Source: Paenibacillus xylanexedens
Lineage (GTDB): Bacteria; Bacillota; Bacilli; Paenibacillales; Paenibacillaceae
NCBI RefSeq assembly: GCF_017874615.1
Contig: NZ_JAGIKV010000004.1
Coordinates: 186,001 to 250,000, forward strand
DNA: 64,000 nt
Direction of reading: 5' to 3'
In this document: positions 1 to 10,394 of the stretch, piece after piece
How positions within the stretch are numbered: position 1 is the first letter of the stretch
Layout: each line of letters starts with the position of its first letter
Translations under genes and position numbers: made by a program
Notes under the pieces: model-generated
Databases searched by the model: none
What the model saw: only the letters and a program-made list of their open reading frames with translations
What the model was told of the DNA's origin: nothing

Positions 1-1567
1 ATAAATAACGAATCCCCAGGCTCAAACTCCCTGATTTCAGATCATGGGCTACCTCGGTTGCAGCAACATGGTCACCGGACACAATATGTCTGCGCAGCGC
101 CTCAATTTTGCCAGGTGTATCGGTACGATACATGTCCAACAACATACCAAGGAGTGTACGATCGCCATCGGTGTTTAATTCCGCAATCTCATGTACGATG
201 CTCATATTTAGTACCTCGGTCGGTTCGGAGGATTGCTGCCACTTCTCGATCATCTTACTCAAAATTTCCAGCGTGAAGGGTTTGCCAATAAAGTCATTCA
301 TCCCGGCTTCCATACACTTGTCTTTCTCTCCCTGCATGACATTACCTGTCATTGCAATAATTGGTGTGGTATGGCGCATTTCATCCATTTCTATCGAGCG
401 GATTTTGCGTGTTGCCTCCAAACCGTCCATCACTGGCATCATATAATCCATGAGAATCAAACTGTATTTTTTGCTGAGAAAAGCAGCTATTGCCTCTTCC
501 CCATTCACTACAGCGTCCACTTGGGTTATTCCCAGTTTTTTGAGCTGCAACATAACAAGCTGCCGGTTGATGACATTATCATCGGCCAGCAATACAGATA
601 CAGAAGGAGCTTCATCATCCATATCCTGCCCCTGATGCTCTTGAGCGGAAGCAACAGACTGGTTACCGTCTTTCTTACCAAGTGTAAGTTCGAACCAGAA
701 TGTTGATCCTTCACCCTCCTGACTGTCTACTCCAATCTGACCTTCCATCAGTGTAACGAGCGACTTGCAGATCGATAATCCAAGGCCCGTTCCTCCATAC
801 TCACTTGAGCGTCCTCGTTCAGTCTGCACGTAGGGTTGAAATAACTGGTTCTGATCTTCTTCCGAGATACCAATCCCCGTGTCTTCGACTTCAAATCGGA
901 TCATTTGTGTAATCTCATCATCTTTCATAAGGGCGACTCGTATCCGCGCTGTACCTTCTGATGTGAATTTGTTCGCATTCTGAATTAGATTGATCAGTAT
1001 CTGTGTAATCCTCGTTGAATCCCCTTCAAGAAGGGTAGAGATTCTGGGGTCACAGTCTATCGATAACTGATTTCCGTTCTTTCTGACTTGGGGTTCGAGC
1101 AAACGAACAATATAGTTTATCGTCTCTTGCAGATCTACTTCTCCCAGTTCAAGTCGCATCTGCCCCGCCTCAAGTTTGGACAGATCCAGAAGATCCTGAA
1201 TCAGCTTAAGCAGCAGTTTGGCAGCATCCTGTATAACTGAAACGGAATTTTCCTGTTCTTCAGACAATGGAGACAGCTTCAGCATCTCAGCCATCCCCAA
1301 TATGCCATTTAATGGCGTACGAAAATCATGACTGATGCCTGCAATAAATGCGATTTTTGAATCACCTGCATCTACTGCTTGCTGACGTGCAGCTTCAAGA
1401 CTGTTATTGTTCTTTGCAAGTAGACGCTGAAGTGTCACCAGTTCATTATTCATATCCGAGAATTCCGTAAGTGTCCGTTCCTCTTGCTCTTTACTCCGGA
1501 TCATCCGATCTGATAACTGCTCAATCGTTCTGCGTAGCCTCTGTATCTCTCCGCTCTCATTAGACAT
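1..1567 (-). CDS. Soluble hybrid sensor histidine kinase (HisKA-HATPase-REC-HPt), truncated by window edge
   Basis: Reading the minus strand from ATG at 1567 gives an open frame to the left edge (at least 522 codons, no stop). The start follows AGGAGAGGG at 8 nt. Residues 1-65 are a charged, coiled-coil-like stretch with no membrane segment or PAS domain. The HisKA motif SHDFRTPLNG has its phospho-accepting His near residue 80; HATPase boxes include NLIQNANKF, DTGIGIS and GGTGLGLSI. A receiver domain starts near residue 325 (LLADDN; acceptor Asp in MDYMMP near 373). The C-terminal HPt motif AHDLKSGSLSLG has its His near 508 and is cut just after. The family runs a His-Asp-His phosphorelay in the cytoplasm. 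With no input domain of its own, it probably takes its signal from the upstream cobalamin-binding protein (66-bp gap); this is inference. Confidence 0.9.
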   Translation of the reverse strand, partial: MSNESGEIQRLRRTIEQLSDRMIRSKEQEERTLTEFSDMNNELVTLQRLLAKNNNSLEAARQQAVDAGDSKIAFIAGISHDFRTPLNGILGMAEMLKLSPLSEEQENSVSVIQDAAKLLLKLIQDLLDLSKLEAGQMRLELGEVDLQETINYIVRLLEPQVRKNGNQLSIDCDPRISTLLEGDSTRITQILINLIQNANKFTSEGTARIRVALMKDDEITQMIRFEVEDTGIGISEEDQNQLFQPYVQTERGRSSEYGGTGLGLSICKSLVTLMEGQIGVDSQEGEGSTFWFELTLGKKDGNQSVASAQEHQGQDMDDEAPSVSVLLADDNVINRQLVMLQLKKLGITQVDAVVNGEEAIAAFLSKKYSLILMDYMMPVMDGLEATRKIRSIEMDEMRHTTPIIAMTGNVMQGEKDKCMEAGMNDFIGKPFTLEILSKMIEKWQQSSEPTEVLNMSIVHEIAELNTDGDRTLLGMLLDMYRTDTPGKIEALRRHIVSGDHVAATEVAHDLKSGSLSLGIRYL

Positions 1568-1633
1568 CACAACATCCCTCTCCTAATCCCTAACCATATC
1601 AAGATAATTACATGTAGCTGGCTGAGCCAGTAA

Positions 1634-2377
1634 TTATTCTGCAACCGCAACTGCCTCATCGGCTCCCGGAGCATAACCGTCGGCTCCTATCGTTTTCCAC
1701 AACTCCTGATCAATATTAAAGGGATATCCCCCAACCATAATCTTCACATGTGCCGTTGCCGGATGATGACGAATCAGATGAATCAACTCTTTGGCCAGAT
1801 GAAGGTGATACGTCATCGTAACTGAAATCGCAACAACATCGCCCTGATGCCGCTCTATAGCCTCTATTACACTTCCATTGGGAACATTGGCCCCCAGATA
1901 GTGCGTATCCCAACCTTCCATCTCGAACACATCTGTGAGCATACGCAGTCCGATCTCATGTTGTTCACTGCCTACACAGGTAGCCACTAGTTTTTTATCC
2001 TGACCCGTATGAATCAGCCAGCGAGAATAAAGACGTGATATGAATGACTGGGTCGCTGCCGTACAAAAGTGTTCTTGCCCCACACTGATACGATGGCATT
2101 GCCACAATCGTCCAATTTCATATTGGGTGGGCTGAAAGATATATCGATAAATATCACGAATCGTCACCCCGGCTTCTAACTGGGCTTCAATGATCTCAAA
2201 GGCTTCATACCGTTTATTCTCAAGCAAGCACTGTAAGTACGATTGCGCGGTATCTCCATATGGCATGGATTCGTTGATGTAACCCGCTTGTGACTCCATA
2301 TGTGTTGTTCTATATATTCCCATCTCCAGATACTCAAGCAGAAGTGCCTTTGAAGGATGGTCAAATTCTTCTTCCAA
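1634..2377 (-). CDS. Cobalamin-binding sensor protein, CarH-like photoreceptor module without DNA-binding domain
   Basis: The 247-residue frame carries a B12-binding helical-bundle (cap) domain followed by a Rossmann-type B12-binding domain. W92 is followed after exactly nine residues by E102-H103, the Wx9EH signature of the CarH-type B12 photoreceptor cap. The lower-ligand motif is E-Q-H-E-I-G with His near 140 (ExHxxG), followed by SVT and GGY as expected for the cobalamin loop contacts. No MerR helix-turn-helix is present, so it should act through a partner, most likely the hybrid kinase downstream. The start is uncertain: this frame begins at a TTG with a weak ribosome site. Plausible coding sequence extends further upstream to an ATG at 2446 but is interrupted by TAG at 2429-2431. 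Domain call is firm; light sensing is inferred. Confidence 0.85.
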   Translation of the reverse strand: MEEEFDHPSKALLLEYLEMGIYRTTHMESQAGYINESMPYGDTAQSYLQCLLENKRYEAFEIIEAQLEAGVTIRDIYRYIFQPTQYEIGRLWQCHRISVGQEHFCTAATQSFISRLYSRWLIHTGQDKKLVATCVGSEQHEIGLRMLTDVFEMEGWDTHYLGANVPNGSVIEAIERHQGDVVAISVTMTYHLHLAKELIHLIRHHPATAHVKIMVGGYPFNIDQELWKTIGADGYAPGADEAVAVAE

Positions 2378-2595
2378 TGTCTCTTTGATCAGATTGAGAT
2401 TAATCGCCAGGTCTTCTGGTGATACCTTCTACTTGATCCAATCCATCCATTCCGCTCTTAATCGTTATGTTCCATTATACATGAACTTTCGATAATCATG
2501 TTTTACACACGATGAATGTATAGAACAATCTTCCTATATTATGGAGGGCCTTGCAAGTCAGTCAGCCAGTATATGCGTGTACTTTTCGAGTTCCA

Positions 2596-2635
2596 CAAAA
2601 AAAACTGACCTGCGTTATGAACGCAAGTCAGTTTT
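2596..2635 (-). terminator. Rho-independent terminator after the MarR gene
   Basis: Arms 2601-2615 and 2621-2635 pair with a single mismatch around the loop TATGA. Read on the minus strand the hairpin is followed by a run of T (A-run at 2597-2604 on plus). The stop codon of the MarR gene (2615-2617) lies inside the stem. Confidence 0.85.
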
Positions 2636-3076
2636 CCCTTCTGCCGCCAGTCCCAGCTTCTTCAACATCTTAATCGCAGCTACTTTCTCGGAAGGGTCAA
2701 GTCCTTCCAAAGCATCAATGATGACCTGATGGTGTTGAGGAAATATCTGTGTGAACAATTCTCTTCCTTCCTCGGTTAACTCAGCGTAAATGACACGCCG
2801 ATCTTCCTTGGAAGGTCGACGAAACAGCAGATTTTTATTTTGCAACTTATCTACAACATACGTAATATTACCACTGGACATTAACACCTTTTCACCAATC
2901 TTTTGCAATGCCTGTGGTCCCTTATGATATAACAAATCAAGTACACCAAATTCTGTCGTATTCAGTCCGTGACTCTGGATGTCCCGATTGGAACGTGAGG
3001 TCACAGAATTGTAGGCCCGAACAAGAACCACGAATAATTGTAAAGACAGTTCCCGGTTGTCCTCCGTGTTCAGCAT
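2615..3076 (-). CDS. MarR-family regulator, MhqR-like
   Basis: A 153-residue protein with a winged helix-turn-helix: recognition region around LMSSGNITYVVDKL and wing KEDRRVIYAELTEEG. From memory it resembles B. subtilis MhqR in the segments RDIQSHGLNTTEFGVLDLLYHKG (shown here in part) and SSGNITYVVDKL. MhqR represses quinone-detoxification genes and has no cofactor. The start follows GGAGG at about 10 nt. It is the last gene of an apparent rpiA-GNAT-marR operon, 15 bp after the acetyltransferase. No dioxygenase or nitroreductase target sits next to it, so the regulon must be elsewhere or differ. Family certain, MhqR orthology moderate. Confidence 0.85.
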   Translation of the reverse strand: MLNTEDNRELSLQLFVVLVRAYNSVTSRSNRDIQSHGLNTTEFGVLDLLYHKGPQALQKIGEKVLMSSGNITYVVDKLQNKNLLFRRPSKEDRRVIYAELTEEGRELFTQIFPQHHQVIIDALEGLDPSEKVAAIKMLKKLGLAAEGKTDLRS

Positions 3077-4873: not shown

Positions 4874-6640
4874 GTGAAATCATTAAGTTGGAAAAGCATG
4901 TCGTTTTTCTCCAAAAATTTGTTACTCTCATTTACTAATATCGTTATCATCGGGGTAGCACTTATCGCAAGCAGTTACTATTTTCAAAAAACAGTTCTTG
5001 TTGATCAACTGCATGGACAGGTGGAACAAATTACCAAAAAGTGGGCTGAAGATATCAATCCTACCGAGGTACAAGCTGCTATTGCGGAAGGTAGCTATGA
5101 TGGAGCAACACAAACGAAATTACGAGCGTATTTCGATGAGATGCAAGAATATTATCCTAACATTGCACAAGCCTACATCTTCGGTGTTGAGCTCGGTGGC
5201 GATAACAAGAGATTAACTTCCCTTGTAGCGATGCCGACCAATCTAAGAGAAGCTTTTCAAAGTGAGAACGTTAATATTGGTGACATGTATGAGCAACCGG
5301 TCGTTGTAGCCAATGCACTGAAAGAAATGCTTAATACGGATCGCCCAACATTCACAACATTTTATTCCGATGATTTCGGAACATGGACAACCATTGCATA
5401 TCCAATCAAAGACAGCAACGGTAAGATTTTCTCATATTTTGCCGTTGATGCAGATGCATCAGCCGTACCCGCAGGACTGAACTCCTTGCTCAAAAACGGA
5501 ATTATCATCCTTGTGGCCTTCTTGCTGTTATTCCTGATTATCCAATACCTTGTAGTTAAAAACACACTTTCCCCTATCCGTCACTTGATCAAAGGAATTG
5601 ATGACGTCAGTCGGGGTAATTTGAATGTCAACATTCCGACAGGCAAAGACGATCTGGGACTCGTTAACGAAAAGTTCAACACCATGGTTCGAAAAATCAA
5701 CGATACTATCGTTAAAGTGCAAATCACATCACAAGAAGTAAATCAGTCTGCCAAAGAGCTATATGAAGTTTCCGAACGCAACAGTGAGAATGCAGATTCT
5801 ATCAATAATAATGTAACTCAAATCACTTCCAACATTCGTTCACAGGAACAGGCAACCCGGGATAGTGCACGTGCCATGTCCGAGATGGCTACCGTAATCC
5901 AGACCATTGCCAGCAGCTCCGCAAGTGTAGCGGATGAAGCCTATGAGATGGAACGTCGTTCACAACAAGGTAACAGCGTTGTCCGTCAGGTATCCGAACA
6001 GATGAATCTGATTACGGAATCGGTTAAGAATACCGCTTCTGCCATTGAGGTTCTGGAGAGTCGTTCACAGGAAATCGGCGATATTCTCAATATCATCTCG
6101 GGAATCTCCAGCCAGACTAACTTGCTTGCTCTTAATGCATCCATTGAAGCAGCTCGTGTTGGTGAAGAAGGAAGAGGATTTGCAGTTGTTGCAGGTGAAG
6201 TACGCAAACTTGCCGAGCAGTCTGAACAAGCAACCAGCCAGGTTGGTGTATTGATCCAAGAGATTCAAGCTGGAATTAAACAAGCTGTACGTGCTATGGA
6301 ACAAGGCACGTCAGAAGTAGATACAGGCCTCAGCGTAGCCGATCAAACAGGACAACTGTTCGAAGATATTTTAGAAGCAGCGAAAAAAGTATCTAATCAG
6401 ATTCAGGAAGTATCAAGCGCGACGGAAGAAATCTCTGCGGGTACGGAGGAAATGACCGCTACAGCAGACGACTTGTCTTCAAGCGTAAGCAAGACAGCAA
6501 ACAGCAGTGAACAAATTTCCTCATCTGTTGATGAGCAAAAAGCATCTTTGATTACACTGGTAGACTCCTCCACACGCCTTAACAGCATGTCTGAGGAACT
6601 CCAAGAACTGATCTCTCATTTCAATGTAAGCAAACAATAA
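4874..6640 (+). CDS. Methyl-accepting chemotaxis protein
   Basis: A 588-residue transmembrane chemoreceptor that would signal to CheA/CheW. It has a membrane segment at about 15-36, an extracellular sensing domain of roughly 165 residues (dCache/single-Cache-like by size), a second membrane segment at about 207-228, a HAMP domain ([19 protein letters not shown]), then a long coiled-coil signalling domain. The CheA/CheW-binding hairpin tip [20 protein letters not shown] lies at about 430. The start is GTG, 4 nt after a GGAGTGGAG ribosome site. No che or flagellar genes are nearby. It ends 46 bp before the NRPS-like gene, close enough for co-transcription. Confidence 0.93.
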
Positions 6641-6686
6641 TTCGAATCCACAAACATTCGGTTTGAACCAAGGAGGAATAACTGAA

Positions 6687-9600
6687 GTGATTGAAAACCA
6701 ACCATCTTCTTCCCATTCCATGGAATCTAGCTTGCCAGTTCTGCAGATTCCACTGGATTTTGGGCGACGTCAACAATCATTCTCTTATCAGTCTGCTCAA
6801 ATCACATTACATGCTTCTCTGAGTCGTGAACTTAAACAGAAGTATGGAGAACAGATGGTGTACCCGGTACTCCTCTCAGCTTATGCAGCCTTGTTATTCC
6901 GATTGTCAGCTGAACAGGAACTTGCCATCGGTATACTTGCACCCGATCAGGCAGCTTCCTATCTTTCATTACAGATTCAGGGGAAATTGACCTTCAGCCA
7001 ACTGTGTCATCAGGTTTCAGAGCAGCTCAAGATTGAATACACGTTGCAAAACGGTGGATACCCTGAAACGTTTTTTATGCTGAATAGTGTACAGTTGCCT
7101 CAAGCTCCTCAAATATTAAATTGGAACGTTCGAGATGATCAGAATATGCTCATCCTCGATCTGTTCTATGATAGTTCACTGTTGAAAGAGTCTACCGTGC
7201 TGAGATATGCAGAATATTATCAGACTCTTCTACTCGCCCTCTTGCGTGACGGTGAGAAAGCAATCGGTACGGTGGATATTCTCTCCGCTTCAGATCGATT
7301 GCTTTACCGTGAAATGAATGATACTTCCGTTCTCGAACCAGAGAATCAGACGGTTCATGGTTGGTTCGAAGCAACGGCAGCAGCATATCCGGATTCACCG
7401 GCGATAACATCGCCATCCAAAAGTTATACGTACAGGGAATTGAATGAACGAGCTAACCAGGTTGCACGTGTTCTGTTATCCAATGGATTGCAGAAAGGTG
7501 AATTCGTCAGTATCTTTATGGATCGAAGTCTGGAGACCATCATCTCCCTGCTTGGTATTCTGAAGGCAGGTGGTGCATATGTTCCGATCGACCCTGAGCA
7601 TCCACAAGAACGTAACAGTTATATCGTGGAAGATACGGCGTCCTCCTTCGTGCTGACAACGGAGGCTTCTTATGCCCAAGCTTCCAGCTTGTTCTCCAGT
7701 ATAGCTACGGTCCGTCAGATTCTCGCTGTGGATGGTCGTTTGGCCGGATTTGCAGCAAGTAACCCCAATCTGGATATTCAGCCCGATGATCTTGCGTATA
7801 TTATCTACACGTCAGGGTCGACCGGTAAACCCAAAGGTGCACTGATTGCCCACCGGGGTGTAACCAATCTTGGCAGTGTGGTTCAGCGTGATTGTGACAT
7901 TCAACCAGGAGATGTATTAACCCAGTTTGCTACATACAGCTTTGATGCATCCGTGTGGGATACCATCGGCGCCTTGTTCTATGGAGCAGAGTTATATCTG
8001 TTGTCTGCGGAAGAACGTGTATCCGTTGAAGAATTCGCAAGTGCAATTGAACGGACAGGAACAACCATCATTACGATACTGCCTACGATTTTCTTCAATC
8101 AGCTTGCTTCCTACTTATCCGATGAAGGTTTCCACAAGCTGGCCAAAGTCAGAATCATTACTGTAGCCGGAGAAGCGCTCTATGGTGAACAAGTTCGTGC
8201 CTTCCAGCGCAAATTCGGAAACCAGATTGATATTGTTAATGTGTACGGTCCTACCGAATGTACAGTAGCCACAACTACTCACCGCATCAGTGAGCAGGTT
8301 CCCGAACATGTGGTGAACATCCCTATCGGTAAACCGATTCATAACTACAAAGTATACATTGTGAATGAAGAACAACAGCTCTGTCCGGCAGGTGTACCTG
8401 GTGAGGTATATATTGCTACCCCTGCATTGGCCAAAGGTTACCTGAATCAGCCAGAACGCACAGAGCAAGCATTCATTGAGAACCCGTTTGCGATAGGTGA
8501 GAAAATCTACAAGTCTGGCGATATTGCCAAATTGCTGGATACCGGGTTGCTGGAATATGTCGGTCGCAGTGACTCACAGCTAAAAATTCGTGGTCACCGG
8601 ATTGAGATCGGGGAGATTGAAGATCACTTTGCACGGCTTGATCAGATCCAGAACGTTGCCGTCATTCCGAAGAAAGAATCCGATGGACAAAATATGCTAG
8701 TTGGTTACTTTACATCGAAAGATGGCAGTACCCTCTCTGTTTCGAACATCAAGGCAGAACTGACAGAGAAACTTCCTTCTTATTTTGTACCGAAGTGGAT
8801 CTGTCAACTGGATGAAATGCCGATTGCACCAACTGGAAAAATCAATCGCAAAGCGATGGTATCCCTGTCTCATGTGGAACGACATGAAGATCGCCCTGAT
8901 CGGGTCATGCCTGAGACGGAGACGGAATCCATTATCCTGGACGCATGGAAAGAAATCCTTCAGCATGATGACTTCGGTGTCGAAGACAGTTTCTTCAATA
9001 TCGGTGGTGATTCACTCCGGGTCATTCATGTACTGGTCATTCTGAAGCCACATTATCCGCAACTGAAAATTGCCGACTTCTTTGCCGAAAAAACAGTCCG
9101 CGCTCTCGCGCGTCGTGTGGAAGTATTGTCTCTCAGTGCAGCAGTAGTTACGGATTCAGTGGTGACCGACGGTATGATTACACAATTATCCGAACACCCT
9201 GTGGAGCTAACATCCCAGTTGGGGTATCCGCTCATTCGTGAACCTGAGCATGTGTTGCTGACTGGAGCAACAGGTTATCTGGGCTCTCATGTGCTGCAAC
9301 AGTTAATTCTGAATTCCAGTACACGGATCTACACCCTTGTTCGTCGACCATCCAATGGAATAACTGCAATGGAACGTTTGACTAACGTGTTGGAAGGTTA
9401 TTTCGGCAAACAACTGACTGACCAAATCTCCACTCGCGTGGAGATTATTGAAGGGGATCTCGAACAACCTAATCTCGGCCTGTCCGCTGAACAAAGGGCT
9501 TATGTTCAGGATCGAATTGACCGTGTCATCCACTGCGCTGCAGACGTCCGTCATTTTGGCGATGCCGATCAGTTCGCCAGAACAAACGTGGAAGGAACGG

Positions 9601-10394
9601 TGGCTTTACTGGATCTGATTCGCAGCAAACCTGGGGCCTCCTTCCACCATGTATCCACGATGGGTATTCCGGAAGATCTGGCACTCAGCGGACAATGGGA
9701 ATCTTCCCTGCAATATGATCGGTTCCCGGCTGACTTGCATGTGGACAACCTGTATTCGGACAGCAAGCTTGAAGCCGAGAAAGTGCTCATGATTGCCGCC
9801 GAGCAAGGTGTACCTGTGAGCATCTATCGTGCAGGTAATCTCACTTGCCACTCTGAAACTGGACGCTTCCAGTCCAATATTGATAGCAACGCCTTTTATC
9901 GTATGATCAAAGCGATGTTATTGCTCGGCAAGGCTCCTGCGGCTGACTGGATGGTTGATTTTACACCGATCAACTATGCAAGTGAAGCTATCGTTCATCT
10001 GGCCTTACGTCAGGATACCGCCGGTCGTGTATTCCACATCTGTAATCCGGAGCCCATCCGTTATGACGAGCTGATCCGTTCTGTGAATCGGGCTGGTTAC
10101 GAAGTCGAGACGCTACCATTCGCGGATTACACACGTTGGTTGTTCGATGCCAGCATCAGCAAAGAGCCGGAAGCTCTTCAGTTGGCTATTGCACAGCTTG
10201 AAGGCGACGGTGCGAAGGATTCAGCATATGTCTATGCTTGCCCTGTCACCACGGCTTATGTGGAACCTGCCGGAATCTCATGTGCAAAAACAGATGATCG
10301 CTTCATCTCCGCCATGTTAGACTACGCCGTTCAGATTGGATATTTCCCGTCTGCAATCCGGCACCATAACGGCACTTCTACAGCAATGGAGTAA
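6687..10394 (+). CDS. NRPS-like protein: partial condensation - adenylation - carrier - thioester reductase
   Basis: About 1235 residues. Residues 15-225 resemble the C-terminal half of a condensation domain and lack HHxxxDG. The adenylation domain has TSGSTGKPKGA near 375, NVYGPTECT, GEVYIA, KSGDIAK and PTGKINRKAM. The carrier site is NIGGDSLRV near residue 772. The C-terminal NAD(P)H-dependent reductase has TGATGYLGSHVL near 858 and a YSDSKLEAEK active site. Such proteins activate an acid, load it on phosphopantetheine and release it reductively as an aldehyde or alcohol. By-eye alignment with GrsA gives pocket residues D-A-W-T-T-A-V-V-A-K, compatible with a hydrophobic or aromatic amino acid but not diagnostic. 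GTG at 6687 is chosen because AAGGAGG lies 10 nt upstream; an earlier in-frame TTG has no such site. No PPTase or other biosynthesis gene is adjacent. Confidence 0.9.
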   Translation: MIENQPSSSHSMESSLPVLQIPLDFGRRQQSFSYQSAQITLHASLSRELKQKYGEQMVYPVLLSAYAALLFRLSAEQELAIGILAPDQAASYLSLQIQGKLTFSQLCHQVSEQLKIEYTLQNGGYPETFFMLNSVQLPQAPQILNWNVRDDQNMLILDLFYDSSLLKESTVLRYAEYYQTLLLALLRDGEKAIGTVDILSASDRLLYREMNDTSVLEPENQTVHGWFEATAAAYPDSPAITSPSKSYTYRELNERANQVARVLLSNGLQKGEFVSIFMDRSLETIISLLGILKAGGAYVPIDPEHPQERNSYIVEDTASSFVLTTEASYAQASSLFSSIATVRQILAVDGRLAGFAASNPNLDIQPDDLAYIIYTSGSTGKPKGALIAHRGVTNLGSVVQRDCDIQPGDVLTQFATYSFDASVWDTIGALFYGAELYLLSAEERVSVEEFASAIERTGTTIITILPTIFFNQLASYLSDEGFHKLAKVRIITVAGEALYGEQVRAFQRKFGNQIDIVNVYGPTECTVATTTHRISEQVPEHVVNIPIGKPIHNYKVYIVNEEQQLCPAGVPGEVYIATPALAKGYLNQPERTEQAFIENPFAIGEKIYKSGDIAKLLDTGLLEYVGRSDSQLKIRGHRIEIGEIEDHFARLDQIQNVAVIPKKESDGQNMLVGYFTSKDGSTLSVSNIKAELTEKLPSYFVPKWICQLDEMPIAPTGKINRKAMVSLSHVERHEDRPDRVMPETETESIILDAWKEILQHDDFGVEDSFFNIGGDSLRVIHVLVILKPHYPQLKIADFFAEKTVRALARRVEVLSLSAAVVTDSVVTDGMITQLSEHPVELTSQLGYPLIREPEHVLLTGATGYLGSHVLQQLILNSSTRIYTLVRRPSNGITAMERLTNVLEGYFGKQLTDQISTRVEIIEGDLEQPNLGLSAEQRAYVQDRIDRVIHCAADVRHFGDADQFARTNVEGTVALLDLIRSKPGASFHHVSTMGIPEDLALSGQWESSLQYDRFPADLHVDNLYSDSKLEAEKVLMIAAEQGVPVSIYRAGNLTCHSETGRFQSNIDSNAFYRMIKAMLLLGKAPAADWMVDFTPINYASEAIVHLALRQDTAGRVFHICNPEPIRYDELIRSVNRAGYEVETLPFADYTRWLFDASISKEPEALQLAIAQLEGDGAKDSAYVYACPVTTAYVEPAGISCAKTDDRFISAMLDYAVQIGYFPSAIRHHNGTSTAME

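Follow-up and report, generated by a model that had tools for sequence, protein, structure and literature searches.

Gene organization and lesions at the locus

The locus lies at the beginning of the window, i.e. the entire stretch of 64,000 nucleotides of Paenibacillus xylanexedens DNA that was analyzed, and comprises two genes on the minus strand. The first is the probable remnant of a photocobilin-like sensor gene (1634..2377), recognized by ORF and Pfam analysis and by comparison with intact relatives. The second, located downstream, codes for a soluble hybrid histidine kinase (1..1570; ORF and Pfam analysis) and continues past the window edge to G000:C4:185870. The kinase gene is complete (G000:C4 complement 185870-187570), starts with GTG at 1570 or ATG at 1567, has retained the ribosome-binding-site-like sequence AGGAGAGG ahead of its start, and encodes 566 amino acids. 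The protein is composed of a coiled-coil linker followed by HisKA, HATPase_c, REC and HPt domains, all four of which scored above their Pfam cut-offs; no Pfam sensor domain was detected in it. This agrees with the original prediction, which had described the neighboring gene as encoding a cytoplasmic hybrid kinase with these four domains and no sensor domain. In its catalytic core and phosphorelay domains the kinase resembles hybrid kinases of the TorS/BarA/ArcB kind (HisKA-HATPase-REC-HPt). In contrast to these, it has neither a membrane nor a Pfam sensor domain; its coiled-coil linker is short, and its neighbor is a B12 protein. The N-terminal coiled-coil-like linker (kinase residues 8-71; 1358..1549, minus strand) includes MNNELVTLQRLLAK and is the proposed site of sensor action, in view of its conservation and its relaxation after sensor loss (see below).

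Upstream of the sensor gene, synteny revealed a conserved MarR-type regulator gene (2615..3076, minus strand), which is at most a candidate member of the system. A promoter scan near the locus yielded matches at chance level. Elsewhere in the window, an ORF of 1243 amino acids (6663-10394, plus strand) reads like a single NRPS-type module with adenylation, carrier and terminal reductase parts; it sits just downstream of a gene for a methyl-accepting chemotaxis-like protein (4874-6640).

The longest ORF with a usable start codon (TTG) in the sensor gene (2377..1634, minus strand) encodes 247 amino acids that form a four-helix cap (Pfam B12-binding_2, E 6e-12) and a B12 Rossmann domain (Pfam B12-binding, E 4e-27). 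As had been noted, it contains the motifs W92-x9-E102-H103 (Wx9EH) and E138-x-H140-x-x-G143 (ExHxxG), and Pfam detected no MerR domain in it. The assumption that this ORF represents a whole protein did not hold, however, because its TTG start is internal to the coding sequence of the relatives' gene. The closest intact relatives, 91-98% identical, have a frame longer by some 100 codons, and their B12 gene encodes a protein of about 362 amino acids that begins with MSHQEAGERLL and has about 98 additional residues at its N terminus; the window ORF is equivalent to residues 99-345 of the 362-residue intact protein. The kinase ORF does adjoin the B12 ORF, at a distance of 63 bp and not the 66 bp given initially, whereas the usual gap in close relatives is 12 bp.

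DNA alignment with the intact relatives revealed a clean deletion between GGATCAAGTAG and AAGGTATCACC (junction at 2426..2431, minus strand). Identical flanking words are separated by 365 bp in the intact gene and by 22 bp in the window. The missing 343 bp comprise 100 bp of leader and codons 1-81, the start codon among them, and thereby globin helices 1-3 including both invariant sites (Q46-D47 and W73). Codons 82-98, which encode the end of the deleted globin domain, are still in frame (2378..2428, minus strand) and contain no ATG, GTG or TTG; the first such codon of the remnant frame is the TTG at codon 99, and an in-frame TAG is located ahead of residue 82. The second lesion is a premature stop, Q346*, caused by a change of codon 346 from CAA to TAA (1634..1636, minus strand). 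It is present in the window and absent from the sister genome G069 and the intact relatives, and it removes no more than the terminal part of the final helix plus a tail modelled at low confidence. By comparison with relatives, the region between remnant and kinase (1571..1633, minus strand) consists of the former last 16 codons and stop codon of the sensor gene, followed by the 12-bp spacer. A search of the window genome found no second copy of the bilin-globin domain elsewhere.

As the genome is a draft assembly in 56 contigs, both lesions might be assembly or sequencing errors in a gene that is in fact intact. However, the identical junction is found in G069, a separate genome, on a 7-Mb contig, and it displays ordinary microhomology (3-bp AAG). 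The deletion is thus real and inherited, an assembly error was rejected as its cause, and an intact gene hidden behind such errors is scarcely conceivable.

It might also be that the truncated ORF still works, the TTG at 2377 giving rise to a cap-and-B12 protein without globin that senses green light only, or cobalamin status, and acts on the kinase. In line with this, cap and B12 domain are complete with their ligand motifs retained, the deletion shared with G069 has lasted through some divergence, the remnant frame is open apart from Q346*, and the remnant has a low overall dN/dS with no excess of amino-acid changes. The low dN/dS could nevertheless come from exchange with intact alleles, as some G069 segments are nearer to G056 than to the window, and given this possible recombination and substitution counts too small to decide, the selection test on the remnant allows no conclusion. 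Moreover, the remnant has neither its leader nor its original start codon and follows an in-frame TAG, what is left of the globin helices would lack support, Q346* arose after the deletion, and other lineages proceeded to full loss at this locus. A functional truncated sensor is therefore considered unlikely, and the sensor gene of the window is most probably a pseudogene.

Domain architecture of the intact sensor

When an intact copy was compared with the PDB, the best solved matches were the photocobilins 8J2W/8J2X (E 5e-24) and 8J2Y (E 8e-18); 1Y80 and 3EZX were also among the matches. Pfam had no name for the N-terminal domain, whose identity emerged from profile comparison with the PDB and from fold matching. 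The profile of this domain alone retrieved photocobilin chains only, namely 8J2W/8J2X through their globin part (E 6e-4) and, with a weak score, 8J2Y (E 0.31). The full-length AlphaFold model (pLDDT 87.6) matched the B12 domains of CarH and photocobilin. That search aligned the B12 half alone, perhaps due to the swapped globin order relative to 8J2W, and the globin was then modelled separately. Residues 1-125 were predicted to adopt a five-helix fold (pLDDT 95) whose best Foldseek matches were allophycocyanin, phycocyanin and the biliverdin-binding protein smURFP (TM about 0.8).

Intact relatives thus carry a phycobiliprotein-like (bilin-type) globin within the same protein as a CarH-type cap and B12 Rossmann domain with the Wx9EH and E/DxH motifs. 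As judged from these profile and model comparisons, the intact protein is photocobilin/photoglobin-like and not a CarH without MerR. The window copy has lost most of its globin along with residues 1-81 and the start codon, no other copy exists in the genome, and it is hence a broken former member of the photocobilin/photoglobin-B12 class. Its appearance as a CarH-like protein without MerR thus results, on the sequence comparison, from the damage suffered by a globin-B12 protein in which MerR was absent from the outset. The original idea of a CarH cap reused by a kinase had missed the bilin-globin, and the nearest kind is photocobilin/photoglobin.

The Wx9EH and [ED]xHxxG motifs were present in 80 of 80 relatives and are therefore not due to chance. 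The xQD motif (Q46 D47) and W73 were invariant across the aligned intact copies, and photoglobins have been described with a CXQD motif (PMC10151467). A simple pattern search found no QD motif in 29 of the 80 copies, so bilin binding may not be universal. From the published light signature, GxxW, EH and GxxxP were found, whereas GxxH (PMC11796333) deviates: its G is replaced by S in the window, and most Paenibacillus copies have S, N or Q and not G three residues ahead of the lower-ligand histidine.

This deviation, together with the fact that an adenosyl-pocket signature alone does not prove light sensing, would suit a pair that senses cobalamin or redox state, the kinase linking cofactor status to gene expression. 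Light is favored, however, by the fused bilin-type globin with its invariant xQD and by kinship to photocobilins with experimentally demonstrated light activity (PMC10979010), which makes cofactor or redox sensing a rather improbable function. By analogy with the photocobilins (PMC10979010), intact relatives would be expected to bind adenosylcobalamin and biliverdin and to respond to light.

The cap and B12 domains do score against methyltransferase corrinoid proteins: NCBIfam models of the MtbC/MtgC type outscored CarH, all of them far below their cut-offs (46-67 bits for the MtbC/MtgC type versus cut-offs of 215-370 bits), and 1Y80 and 3EZX point in the same direction. It is nonetheless very unlikely that the B12 protein is a methyl-carrying corrinoid protein of a methyltransferase system and not a sensor, considering Wx9EH in all relatives, the phycobiliprotein-like globin fused to the intact form, a histidine kinase as constant neighbor, and photocobilins as best PDB matches. 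No corrinoid methyltransferase was recognized among the immediate neighbors of the locus.

With the photocobilins SasPcob (8J2W/8J2X) and AbPcob (8J2Y; Zhang et al. 2024, PMC10979010) the intact relatives share the bilin-type globin, the CarH-type cap, the B12 domain and the W/EH and E/DxH motifs. They differ from SasPcob in that the globin is N-terminal and not C-terminal, and from the photocobilins in that the partner is a histidine kinase encoded by the next gene and not a diguanylate cyclase; in the window copy, most of the globin is additionally missing. A globin is likewise combined with a B12-binding domain in photoglobins (Schneider et al. 2022, PMC8717448), which, as far as they are portrayed in PMC10979010, PMC11796333 and PMC10151467, are predicted light-sensing bundles in signal transduction. 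The light-dependent repressors CarH/LitR (TtCarH 5C8D and others) share cap, B12 domain, Wx9EH and ExHxxG. Unlike these, however, the proteins described here have no MerR DNA-binding domain even in their intact form, a kinase as neighbor and likely output, no equivalent of H132 in most copies, and Q following W in 74 of 80. The class is known. Within it, proteins that have the globin first, are paired with a kinase and have repeatedly been lost make up an apparent variant, in a comparison that covered the photoglobins through these three later papers.

Sensor-kinase pairing and recurrent sensor loss

A search for the gene pair in relatives, proposed as a check with the original prediction, bore out the pairing; a lack of conserved pairing, which would have refuted that prediction, was clearly not what it showed. 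A histidine kinase gene is the downstream neighbor on the same strand in 76 of 80 related loci, with its start at a distance of up to 600 bp and mostly of no more than 60 bp. The 80 loci stem from Bacillota, Chloroflexota, Pseudomonadota, Bacteroidota, Thermodesulfobacteriota, Spirochaetota, Acidobacteriota, Coprothermobacterota and Vulcanimicrobiota. The Vulcanimicrobiota locus belongs to the four exceptions, so the paired loci span at least eight named phyla; one exception is located near a contig end. Just a few kinase genes were found upstream in the same loci, and the downstream pairing is therefore not a mere consequence of kinase abundance. Within the genus Paenibacillus the kinase gene adjoins 49 of 49 intact sensor genes, and thus none of the intact sensors observed lacks its kinase. 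The putative light-kinase pairing is thus a well-supported trait of the family, as far as gene neighborhood can tell. No description of a sensor-kinase pair was found in the literature on these B12 proteins with histidine kinases or Paenibacillus, and none of sensor decay or linker evidence in the literature searched, in which the photoglobins were represented by PMC10979010, PMC11796333 and PMC10151467.

The sensor is broken or absent while the kinase frame is whole in nine genomes (the window genome G000, G069, G005, G033, G018, G047, G031, G039 and G009); in three others (G029, G037 and G007) the kinase gene is damaged as well. On the kinase tree sensor loss requires 8 changes, at least 6 of them on well-supported branches. 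The sensor has thus been broken or lost at least six to eight times in the genus, in most cases next to an undamaged kinase. The simplest explanation is that the sensor needs the kinase to produce an output, and that the kinase is useful even where the sensor is missing. In G029 (L056, 5537-6447) a deletion starts in the sensor gene and ends in the kinase gene, and fragments are all that remains of the two.

Sensor-paired kinases have a conserved coiled-coil-like stretch before HisKA (MNNELVTLQRxLAK), which in the window genome was matched in this kinase only. Evolution of the linker was assessed on a tree built without it by comparing sensor-less branches with intact terminal branches. The ratio of linker to core substitutions was 36:63 on the former and 68:306 on the latter (Fisher p 2e-4, on the assumption of independent changes; branch permutation p=0.005). 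The older losses (G009, G031 and G039) account for most of the effect, recent losses alone giving p 0.32, and the pattern had first been noticed in pairwise comparisons of the same sequences on which it was then tested. The faster change of the linker relative to the core in sensor-less lineages suggests that the sensor acts on the kinase at the linker, and does not prove contact. In the kinase left in G039 after sensor loss (L062, 5050-6768), the coiled-coil linker shows a gap of 10 residues and an A-to-P change.

Distant kinases examined were mostly without REC and HPt and had a different N-terminal part, so the constant elements are sensor and HisKA kinase and not the full phosphorelay. Most photocobilin-paired kinases from distant phyla (L128-L158; e.g. 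L128:5569, L129:5550, L131:5550) contain an unnamed N-terminal region of about 170 amino acids (xLLCDxxGxIxxVxRDxLGL...), perhaps PAS-like, which is missing from most Paenibacillus kinases.

Proposed mode of action and biological significance

The original proposal of a B12-based light sensor coupled to a kinase finds good support at the level of the family, given the conserved pairing and the light-responsive photocobilins as closest solved proteins, but not for the window, where the sensor is left without start codon, most of the globin and its C-terminal end. The locus is likely to be a decayed light-sensing operon, the intact form of which would encode a photocobilin-like sensor acting on the linker of the kinase. 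In such a sensor, an N-terminal phycobiliprotein-like globin, probably holding a linear bilin (biliverdin), would be combined with the CarH-type four-helix cap and the cobalamin-binding Rossmann domain. Green light absorbed via adenosylcobalamin, and perhaps redder light via the bilin, would break the Co-C bond. The cap would then loosen, and the contact of the sensor with the kinase, whose gene begins 12 bp further on, would change at the coiled-coil linker. Autophosphorylation of the kinase would be altered, and phosphate would travel in a His-Asp-His relay via REC and HPt, reaching a response regulator encoded at an unlinked site. There is precedent for action in trans, as the standalone photocobilin SasPcob acts on a diguanylate cyclase in this way (PMC10979010).

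The window genome encodes a heme oxygenase and contains two cobalamin riboswitches. A separate CarH-like MerR regulator gene (G000:C16:116293-116718; L004:919-1902; NCBIfam CarH E 1e-39, below cut-off) adjoins a phytoene desaturase-like gene. The cofactors are hence plausible in this organism, and carotenoid control would be possible without the present locus. In the lineage of the window, the 343-bp deletion and then the nonsense mutation would have disabled the sensor and left the kinase intact, so the kinase probably runs without light input.

More generally, we give equal weight for and against the proposal that, in many bacterial phyla, a two-gene system with two chromophores (bilin and B12) uses a conserved coiled-coil linker (NNELVxxQRxLxK) to control, in trans, a soluble kinase dedicated to it, giving a light-driven phosphorelay, and that repeated sensor loss in Paenibacillus has left the kinase free to work independently of light. 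The locus illustrates that a fresh deletion can make a known architecture pass for a new one. The sensor losses in Paenibacillus are natural knock-outs, and the effect of the sensor on the kinase is directly testable.

Regulation of DNA binding by B12 photoreceptors is established. Control of a diguanylate cyclase by such receptors has also been demonstrated (PMC10979010). With a kinase as partner, retained across many phyla, phosphorelay signalling would join these outputs, and the pairing would give non-photosynthetic soil bacteria a broad-spectrum light sense.
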